64,000 nt of DNA from Phenylobacterium sp. (lineage in GTDB: Bacteria; Pseudomonadota; Alphaproteobacteria; Caulobacterales; Caulobacteraceae). Each line of letters starts with the position of its first letter. Position 1 is the stretch's first letter. The position numbers and the translations under genes were made by a program. The stretch lies in the NCBI RefSeq assembly GCF_004799515.1, contig NZ_SSMX01000047.1:158386-222385 (forward strand), in the 5' to 3' direction. The notes below the pieces were generated by a model. The model searched no databases. It was not told the DNA's origin and saw only the letters and a list, made by a program, of their open reading frames with translations. Positions 5,779-43,260 of this stretch are shown here, in pieces.

Positions 5779-6921
5779 TCAGCCCTTGAGGTTCGGGTGC
5801 ACGACCGCGCCGCCCTGCGTGACCAGGGCCGCCTTCAGGATCTCGTCCTCATAGTCGGGGGCGAACTGGCCCTCCTTGTCGAGGAACAGGCCGGAGAAGG
5901 CGAAGAGGTTGCGGGCGTAAAGCGCCGAGGCATCGGCGGCGATGCGGCCGGGCAGGTTGGGAATGCCCAGGATCTTCACGCCGTTCCGGGTGACGGCCAC
6001 CTCGCCCAGCTTGGCGCCCTCCACATTGCCGCCCTGCTCGATGGCCAGGTCGACGATCACCGAGCCGGGCTTCATGGAGGCCACCTGGGCGGCGTTCACC
6101 AGCCTGGGCGCCGGGTGGCCGGGGATCAGGGCGGTGGTGATCACCATGTCCTGCTTGGCGATGTGGCTGGAGATCAGCTCGGCCTGCTTGGCCTGGTACT
6201 CGGCGCTCATCTCCTTGGCGTAGCCGCCGACGGTCTGGGCGTTCCTGAACTCCTCGTCCTCGACCGCCAGGAACTTGGCGCCGAGGCTTTCCACCTGCTC
6301 CTTGGTGGCCGGGCGCACGTCGGTGGCGGTGACCACCGCGCCCAGCCGCCGCGCCGTGGCGATAGCCTGCAGGCCGGCGACGCCCACGCCCATGATGAAC
6401 ACCTTGGCCGCGGCCACCGTGCCGGCGGCGGTCATCATCATCGGCATGGCCTTGCCGTAGGCCTCTGCGCCCTCGATCACCGCCCGGTAGCCGGCGAGAT
6501 TGGCCTGGGAGGACAGCACGTCCATCACCTGGGCGCGGGTGATGCGCGGCACGAACTCCATGGCGAAGGCGGTGGCCCCAGCCTTGGCCAGGCCGTCCAG
6601 CGTCGCCTTGTCCTGATAGGGATTGAGGGTCGCCACGACGATCGTGCCGGGTTTCAGGACCGCGAGCTCGTCGGCCTCGGGCCCCCGCACCTTGAAGAGG
6701 ATGTCGGCCTTGGCGAGCACATCCTTGGCGGTCTTGGCCAGCGTCGCGCCGGCGGCCTCATAGTCGGCGTCGGGGTAGGAGGCGGCGGTCCCAGCGCCGG
6801 TCTCGACCACCACGGTGAACCCTGCGCCGATGAGCTTCTTGACCGTTTCCGGAACGGCGGCGACCCGGGTCTCGCCGCTGCGGCGCTCCCTGGTGACGGC
6901 AATGACGGCCATAAAGCGCAA
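5779..6921 (-). CDS. pntA: Re/Si-specific NAD(P)(+) transhydrogenase subunit alpha
   Basis: AVTRERRSGETRVAAVPETVKKL; GVGVAGLQAIATARRLGAVVTATDVRPATKEQVESLGAKF. Confidence 0.95.
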   Translation of the reverse strand: MRFMAVIAVTRERRSGETRVAAVPETVKKLIGAGFTVVVETGAGTAASYPDADYEAAGATLAKTAKDVLAKADILFKVRGPEADELAVLKPGTIVVATLNPYQDKATLDGLAKAGATAFAMEFVPRITRAQVMDVLSSQANLAGYRAVIEGAEAYGKAMPMMMTAAGTVAAAKVFIMGVGVAGLQAIATARRLGAVVTATDVRPATKEQVESLGAKFLAVEDEEFRNAQTVGGYAKEMSAEYQAKQAELISSHIAKQDMVITTALIPGHPAPRLVNAAQVASMKPGSVIVDLAIEQGGNVEGAKLGEVAVTRNGVKILGIPNLPGRIAADASALYARNLFAFSGLFLDKEGQFAPDYEDEILKAALVTQGGAVVHPNLKG

Positions 6922-10049: not shown

Positions 10050-10386
10050 TTTCGCGGCTGGAGAAACCCGTGTTCGGGCGCGCATCAGCATGCTCGCGAC
10101 GACGGAGGGTGGGCGAACCTCCCTGATCGTCGGCCCGACTAGCTATCGGCCGAACCACAACTTCTTTGGCCCCGAGAACCGAGACATGGCCATCGGTCTC
10201 ATCGATCTGCTTCCCGGCGAGACGCTGAACCCCGATGAGATTCGTGTGCTCGACCTGACCTTCATCACCTGGCCCGAAGGCGAACTCTATCCGGGGCGGG
10301 GGTGGCTGATTCAAGAAGGCGCCCGGCTCGTCGGCAGGGGTGAGGTCATCGAGCTATTGTCCAGCAGCGGCCATGCTCCGCCCTAA
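10036..10386 (+). CDS. Small protein resembling a stand-alone EF-Tu domain III
   Basis: RVRARISMLATTEGGRTSLIVGPTSYRPNHNFFG...WLIQEGARLVGRGEVIEL resembles EF-Tu C-terminal domain (GGRHTPFF..YRPQFYF / FAIREGGRTVGAGVV); no G domain; ATG overlaps preceding stop. Confidence 0.7.
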   Translation: MGSINFAAGETRVRARISMLATTEGGRTSLIVGPTSYRPNHNFFGPENRDMAIGLIDLLPGETLNPDEIRVLDLTFITWPEGELYPGRGWLIQEGARLVGRGEVIELLSSSGHAPP

Positions 10387-10523
10387 ACCTCGTGGCAGCC
10401 ATGTTTGCCTGCCTCTCCAGCTCACTCAAGGACTGGCCGAAGGCCAGCCGCGATGCGGCGCGCGTTCCGCGCGTCCTTGACTGAGCTGGAGAGGCAGGCT
10501 CGCATCCACCGTGAGATTTAAGG
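10382..10523. repeat. Cloverleaf palindrome element, copy A
   Basis: 27-nt arms 10407-10433 and 10473-10499 (1 mismatch), gapless triloop hairpins TGGCC-GAA-GGCCA (10434-10446), GCCGC-GAT-GCGGC (10447-10459), GCGCG-TTC-CGCGC (10460-10472); flank GTGAGATTTAAG. Confidence 0.88.
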
Positions 10524-10623
10524 ACCGCTCCGCGCTGGCGCGCTGGGCTTTCACGTCAAAACCCCGCCTTCCTCGCGCAAGGGGGAAAGCGGAATCCGGG
10601 GGTTCGCGTTATGCTCGCGCCCC

Positions 10624-15487: not shown

Positions 15488-15521
15488 GGGTTTTGAGACC
15501 TCCCTCCGGGACAATCCCGCC

Positions 15522-15659
15522 CTTACATCTCATGGATGATGCGAGCCTTCGGGCCCGGGCAAGACAAGGACCGGCCCCTGGCCGGCCGCGTCGCGGCGCG
15601 CGAAGCGCGTCCTTGAGTAGCCCGGGCCCGAAGGCAAACTGGCCGGCATGAGATTTAAG
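15522..15659. repeat. Cloverleaf palindrome element, copy B
   Basis: Arms 15545-15571 and 15609-15635; hairpins CGGCC-CCT-GGCCG, GCCGC-GTC-GCGGC, GCGC-GAA-GCGC; outer CTTACATCTCATG/CATGAGATTTAAG. Confidence 0.88.
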
Positions 15660-15685
15660 CTGCCGTCTGACGGCTCTCCATGAAC

Positions 15686-15798
15686 CGTCATCCTCCGGTC
15701 GCCCGAAGAGGCGATCCGGGGGACCCAAACGGCCGCGCCATGCCCTGCCCCTCAGCTTGGGTCCCCCGGATCAGCCTTCGGCTGAGCGAAGGATGACG
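15686..15798. repeat. CGTCATCCTCCGG paired palindromic repeat, copy 1 (113 bp)
   Basis: TCCGGGGGACCCAA/TTGGGTCCCCCGGA inner stem, side hairpins TCGCC-CGAAGA-GGCGA and TCAGCC-TTC-GGCTGA, outer GTCATCC/GGATGAC. Confidence 0.88.
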
Positions 15799-39115: not shown

Positions 39116-39148
39116 CCGTCATGGCCGGGCTTGTCCCGGCCATGACGG
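39116..39148. repeat. CCGTCATGGCCGGG-CTTGT-CCCGGCCATGACGG hairpin repeat
   Basis: Perfect 14-bp stem; matches the common alphaproteobacterial repeat that yields spurious MAGTSPAMT peptides (seen in ORF 38841..39143). Confidence 0.85.
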
Positions 39149-39198
39149 ACGGGGAAAACCGGGGGCGAACGCCAGCATCCTCCCAGGATGCTGTTGAC

Positions 39199-39340
39199 CC
39201 TTAAGTCCATGGCTGATTGCGAGCTTGGGCGTCCGGGCAAGTCAAGGACGCGCCCTTGGCGCGCCGCGAAGCGGCTGGTCGGAGGCCAGTCCTTGAGTTG
39301 CCCGGACGCCCAAGCAATTCTGGCCCCCATGGATTTAAGG
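39199..39340. repeat. Cloverleaf palindrome element, copy C
   Basis: Arms 39223-39249 and 39289-39315 (1 mismatch); hairpins GCGCC-CTT-GGCGC, GCCGC-GAA-GCGGC, TGGTC-GGA-GGCCA gapless; outer CCTTAAGTCCATGG/CCATGGATTTAAGG. Confidence 0.9.
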
Positions 39341-39376
39341 CGCGGTCTCTTCAGGGCCGTGCGGAGGACTTGAGAG

Positions 39377-43147: not shown

Positions 43148-43260
43148 CGTCATCCTCCGGTCAGCCGCAGGCTGATCCGGGGGACCCAAGCCGAACTTCA
43201 GAAAATGGCGACGCCGCTTGGGTCCCCCGGATCGCCTCTTCGGGCGACCGGAGGATGACG
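43148..43260. repeat. CGTCATCCTCCGG paired palindromic repeat, copy 2 (113 bp, inverted relative to copy 1)
   Basis: Inner stem TCCGGGGGACCCAAGC/GCTTGGGTCCCCCGGA; side hairpins TCAGCC-GCA-GGCTGA and TCGCC-TCTTCG-GGCGA. Confidence 0.9.

Follow-up and report, generated by a model that had tools for sequence, protein, structure and literature searches.

The window, which is the whole stretch of 64,000 nucleotides analysed from a Phenylobacterium sp. genome, carries three copies (A, B and C) of a long palindromic element. Copy C resides between divergent genes, in an intergenic region of 288 nt. Its modules, and the cores of the other two copies, are listed below.

39173 to 39353, minus strand: copy C, whole element, with borders estimated from the covariance model (CM) match at 39195-39342 and the conservation profile of 90 copies
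39173 to 39193, minus strand: copy C, terminal hairpin P7, CAGCATCCT-CCC-AGGATGCTG, at the 3' end of the element
39199 to 39212, no strand: copy C, outer stem P1, left arm, partner of 39327-39340
39223 to 39249, no strand: copy C, left arm, made of P2 (18 nt), mismatch base 39241 and P3 TCAAGGAC
39250 to 39262, 39263 to 39275 (GCCGC-GAA-GCGGC) and 39276 to 39288, no strand: copy C, tip, three triloop hairpins (DNA fold)
39289 to 39315, no strand: copy C, right arm, made of P3 GTCCTTGA, mismatch base 39297 and P2
39327 to 39340, no strand: copy C, outer stem P1, right arm, partner of 39199-39212
10407 to 10499, plus strand: copy A, core of 93 nt, CM match 10380-10526
15545 to 15635, minus strand: copy B, core of 91 nt, CM match 15518-15661

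The copy C core had been described, in a sequence-only reading, as arm, three hairpins and arm (39223-39315), enclosed by 39199-39212 and 39327-39340, and the same plan had been assigned to copies A (93 nt) and B (91 nt). The layout was found again on re-reading, and copies A and B follow it too. The 27-nt arms, regarded as self-complementary, are such in their 18-nt and 8-nt parts, which are separated by a 1x1 mismatch, either G.G or C.C, in all three copies of the window. The third hairpin of copy C includes one G.T pair. The gapless four-way junction proposed for this copy holds for DNA, which folds as a cloverleaf, but not for RNA, in which the minimum free energy (MFE) structure is a different nested hairpin. 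The fold of copy C is not a product of chance, because z-scores are -9.75 for RNA and -10.1 for DNA, with 0 of 200 shuffles in each case. The motif CAAGGAC-N-GTCCTTG has three matches in the window, and none in 100 shuffles (0 expected). When the arms were tried as guides to other sites of the window, only the element itself was matched. Palindromes of the type CGTCAT...ATGACG, resembling known CGTC-tagged REPs, were found at 39117-39147, 15686-15798 and 43148-43260, and two of the three are close to copies C and B.

The family unit is a discrete intergenic foldback of ~175 nt with sharp borders. Modules follow each other in the order P1, a conserved asymmetric internal loop, the 18-bp P2, a 1x1 mismatch, P3, the hairpins P4 to P6, and P7. 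In the alignment of the 19 own-genome copies, set in one orientation, P1 reads CTTAAATCTCATGG / CCATGAGATTTAAG, and the internal loop is approximately CGGCCAGTTTG / TCGCATCAAC. The mismatch, which splits the arm into P2 (18 nt) and P3 (8 nt), is C.C on the plus strand of the element and G.G on the other, and is present in 86 of 106 oriented copies. P3, an 8-nt TCAAGGAC stem, and P5, GCCGC-NNN-GCGGC, are nearly invariant across the order. In 69 of 86 cores an exact P5 is flanked on both sides by perfect stems, P4 and P6, each at least 4 bp long, and triloops make up 119 of 138 loops. P7 is a small hairpin located outside P1 on one side only, the 3' side; hairpins of at least 6 bp occur at its position in 47/90 copies, against 9/90 in a control flank. 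Conservation in the 90-copy profile starts ~11 nt before the CM match and extends ~19 nt beyond it, as far as the end of P7, to fall to background thereafter, and three copies at one locus (L294) have a common 3' end at P7. All 19 copies identified by pattern in the own genome fold as long hairpins, nearly all with the same plan. Features of MITEs found in the family are terminal inverted repeats (P1), sharp borders and absence of coding capacity, the last of these on the evidence of length and intergenic placement alone.

Nineteen places were identified in the own genome by pattern search, against one for a reversed-pattern control, and 21 by CM. Many intergenic copies, which the sequence-only reading had named as support, were found: all 19 own pattern copies, and all but one of 90 distinct copies from several genera, are intergenic. 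CM matches were obtained in 13 of 60 relatives, 12 of them among the 36 that belong to the genus. Larger searches, run with strict filters at which weak matches are lost, gave matches in 50 of 299 sampled Caulobacterales genomes (10 of 54 sampled genera) and in 5 of 385 genomes over the class, own genome included. Named records with the pattern belong mainly to Caulobacter and Phenylobacterium, and also to Brevundimonas viscosa; C. vibrioides DSM 9893 carries copies. Plasmid and phage collections, searched by DNA similarity, yielded no element. A viral contig (L195; portal, head protease, major head protein) features two copies, at 102-156 and 6595-6649, between structural genes. TCAAGGAC three-hairpin-like units were also seen in the actinobacterium Nocardioides litoris (L096, L109, L125, L160, L193), mostly as inverted pairs ~300 bp apart inside a ~550-bp palindromic repeat. 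Gene arrangements around the copies are mixed, and others besides copy C lie between divergent genes. Between tandem genes, elements are codirectional in 24 cases and opposed in 8 (90 copies; p = 0.007). A shared function theme was sought among the neighbouring genes and none emerged, the neighbours being diverse housekeeping genes.

Stem residues change extensively while pairing is retained. In the 19 own copies 93.7% of the cells pair, and 29 pairs show double changes, in 138 cells, a figure reached by 0 of 500 shuffles; in the 90 distinct copies, 36 of 55 pairs feature at least two Watson-Crick types. These figures bear out the earlier suggestion that the fold is preserved while the letters change, and the strong covariation expected from it. 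The 4916 pair cells of the 90 copies divide into 4592 Watson-Crick, 99 G.T, 79 A.C and 146 other pairs, counts which lean towards the structure, to which the alignment was fitted; a separate ungapped count of P2 alone, made on the first copy set, agrees (25 G.T, 19 A.C). In structured RNAs that act from one strand, G.U is expected to be tolerated much more readily than A.C. G.T is here not significantly commoner than A.C (p = 0.15), which argues that the fold is apparently kept as folded DNA rather than as one-strand RNA, and speaks against the structured-RNA option, in its one-strand form, of the sequence-only reading. The tRNA control for the same ratio gave 6 G.T and 0 A.C, from five tRNAs, a sample too small for weight. 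In Rfam, no family matched the window at the gathering threshold (best weak match 35.9 bits, threshold 79), a result in favour of the sequence-only reading.

The intergenic region hosting copy C measures 35-60 nt, and is devoid of the element, in most resolved relatives. In three relatives it is longer (99-206 nt), with CGTC-type palindromes in at least two and the element in none. In the closest genome found (G467), which has ~18 other places, the site spans ~44 nt without element. Among the relatives resolved, the site of copy C displays the presence/absence pattern used to recognize MITEs. Loss elsewhere, rather than gain here, could explain why copy C is missing from the relatives; new sites seem to have acquired the element, and we infer that it is mobile. 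For six own copies a likely counterpart was identified in G467, in some cases from a single flank. One compensatory P2 change marks the probable orthologue of copy B (L252, one flank matched) in that genome. The orthologue of copy A in another genome (G083) has identical P2 arms, and a nested hairpin inserted in P4. In seven ortholog pairs, arms are 91% identical and gapless, tips are 63% identical with gaps, and flanks 47% identical, which is the level of unalignable DNA. P2 pairs are unchanged in 117 of 126 cases; 3 are double changes from Watson-Crick to Watson-Crick in place, 6 are single-side changes. The constraint on the arms at old sites exceeds what a decaying mobile repeat needs, and counts against a mobile nature.

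Tips at orthologous sites are usually swapped or flipped. YGG-type and GNG-type hairpins are found at P4/P6 in either order, two YGG hairpins never (p = 7e-6), and half-elements ending at the tip occur in one genome (G011). Since hairpin order flips and half-elements are cut at the tip, the data suggest breakage and rejoining at the tip. In the same genome (L293:4800-11200), three elements and two half-elements alternate with short, poorly scoring ORFs next to a gene which, by eye, we take from its sequence to be nrdB. This array was considered as a set of integron-like cassettes, a reading disfavoured by its sequence, which is unlike attC. The GC skew of G011, examined for replication-strand or ter bias, was too noisy.

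Transposases were sought among the 25 commonest families of 70 neighbouring proteins, and none was found. RAYT (PF01797) is present in 4 of 12 genomes of the genus with copies and in 1 of 24 without (p = 0.03). Despite this nominal enrichment, RAYT/Y1 was rejected as partner, Y1_Tnp being undetected in the own genome (G000, 21 places) and in the copy-rich G015. IS110 was similarly discarded, as its presence is uncorrelated with copies, and it was undetected in the copy-rich G000, G009 and G015. In G430, six places (L229, L232-L236) hold an IS110-family element with a 27-bp-arm TCAAGGAC palindrome and a P5-like hairpin; the palindrome lies 52 nt past the transposase stop codon, and could be either a relative that was captured or a likeness due to chance. 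No target-site duplication was seen at the three L294 copies, and empty sites are too diverged for comparison. The earlier proposal of a single-stranded DNA substrate for a transposase or recombinase acting in trans is still the option that fits best, but searches for Y1/RAYT and IS110 gave no enzyme to go with the 21 places.

Fixed borders, intergenic location, presence/absence at orthologous sites, Watson-Crick covariation over the entire foldback, arms under constraint and a tip that is exchanged or flips are the basis on which we assign a probability of about one half to the family being a non-autonomous dispersed DNA element of the small-mobile-repeat kind (MITE-, ERIC- or REPIN-like), recognised as folded single strand. 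Recognition would take place when the element is single-stranded, as on the lagging-strand template, and folded into a long hairpin whose tip forms a four-way junction. Strand and polarity would be marked by the retained mismatch together with the conserved internal loop, P7 would mark the 3' end, and an enzyme acting in trans would spread the element. Perfect arms may be kept through selection for the fold along with foldback or template-switch copying, and breakage followed by rejoining at the tip would account for tips that are replaced or inverted and for half-elements that are cut there. Against mobility, transposition was not seen, and neither target-site duplications, nor an autonomous partner, nor a neighbouring transposase of the families listed were found. 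It is possible, though doubtful, that the family represents a DNA element, mobile or maintained, of a new class: a folded cloverleaf single strand with an almost fixed TCAAGGAC/GCCGC core, handled by a putative junction-recognising enzyme that swaps and flips its tip as well.

Arms 91% identical at orthologous sites, surrounded by unalignable non-coding DNA, would also suit a DNA site useful to the host, where a nucleoid, replication or regulatory protein would bind the palindrome in its extruded or folded state, copies being selected at particular genes. The near invariance of P3 and P5 over an order, and the weak codirectional bias with flanking genes (24 vs 8), point the same way. Most sampled members of the genus and order, however, have no detectable copies, the housekeeping neighbours have no common theme and gene arrangements are mixed, and a host site is unlikely. 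Selection on both strands would equally make G.T as rare as A.C, as in an RNA element that works from both strands, such as a bidirectional terminator or a stabiliser of mRNA 3' ends. The fold is indeed very stable on either strand, the MFE structure of the tip having three hairpins in 66/86 cores on the plus and 64/86 on the minus strand, but copy C is not the only one to separate divergent genes, P7 is not followed by a U-run in any copy that was read, and no Rfam family reached the gathering threshold; such an RNA is improbable. Still harder to accept are palindromic repeats devoid of function, in which covariation would derive solely from the correction of arms by template switch or gene conversion. 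Wobble intermediates are few, and tips are replaced as whole hairpins, in keeping with this scheme, yet arm conversion leaves unexplained the conserved unpaired internal loops, the retained mismatch, and the 91% identity of arms against 47% of flanks.

The proposed recognition of the element as a folded single strand bears on a wider question. An order-wide family, which is present in the model genus Caulobacter and combines covariation apparently at the DNA level with a fast-changing tip on conserved arms, makes it testable whether recognition of the folded single strand by an enzyme is the reason why long bacterial palindromes are maintained; a covariance model is now available for finding the partner enzyme.

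Membership in a described family (CIR, CGTC or GTAG REPs, REPINs) deserves hardly any credence: CIR repeats have the same order and intergenic habit, C. crescentus is reported to have CGTC REPs (PMC3733652), copies B and C have CGTC-like palindromes beside them, but GANTC is found in only 18/90 copies, at scattered positions, GTAG in 3/90, and CIR, described as two arms plus linker, is set apart by description.

The family is real, is absent from Rfam and was not found in the literature searched. Its behaviour is closest to that of a small, non-autonomous and mobile palindromic repeat in which the folded single strand matters, and it is a candidate MITE, for which neither a duplication nor a partner was found; membership in REPs, REPINs or CIR is unsupported. 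ERIC, NEMIS and RUP MITEs are likewise 100-200 nt long, non-coding, strongly base-paired, mostly intergenic and patchy in distribution. In contrast to these, compensatory changes are found throughout the unit, the cloverleaf tip is exchangeable, and no TA duplication or known IS partner was seen. Inverted terminal repeats of the AAV type are T-shaped, with a long stem and short triloop hairpins at the tip, the order of which flips. By analogy only, stem and flipping triloop tip are alike, whereas the element here is not a genome end, and has no linked Rep protein. CIR repeats of Caulobacter, as summarised in PMC2229807 from Chen and Shapiro 2003, are ~110-bp intergenic sequences of inverted organisation, made of two arms with a linker and a conserved GANTC at a terminal loop. 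Compared by published description rather than by sequence, the two sets share the status of intergenic Caulobacter repeats and the inverted organisation, and differ in that the unit here is one closed foldback lacking the conserved GANTC. CGTC-tagged REPs of alphaproteobacteria (PMC3733652) are also intergenic palindromes without known transposase, but each is a single hairpin of 8-9 bp that carries a CGTC tag, with no relation in sequence or plan. Differences from the REPIN/BIME-RAYT system of GTAG REPs reside in the scarcity of GTAG, the lack of detectable Y1_Tnp in the own genome, the three-hairpin cloverleaf tip and the ~175 nt length; REPINs are similarly short intergenic palindromes, present in tens of copies, in which paired inverted units form a long hairpin, and are thought to move in trans, as proposed for the family here.
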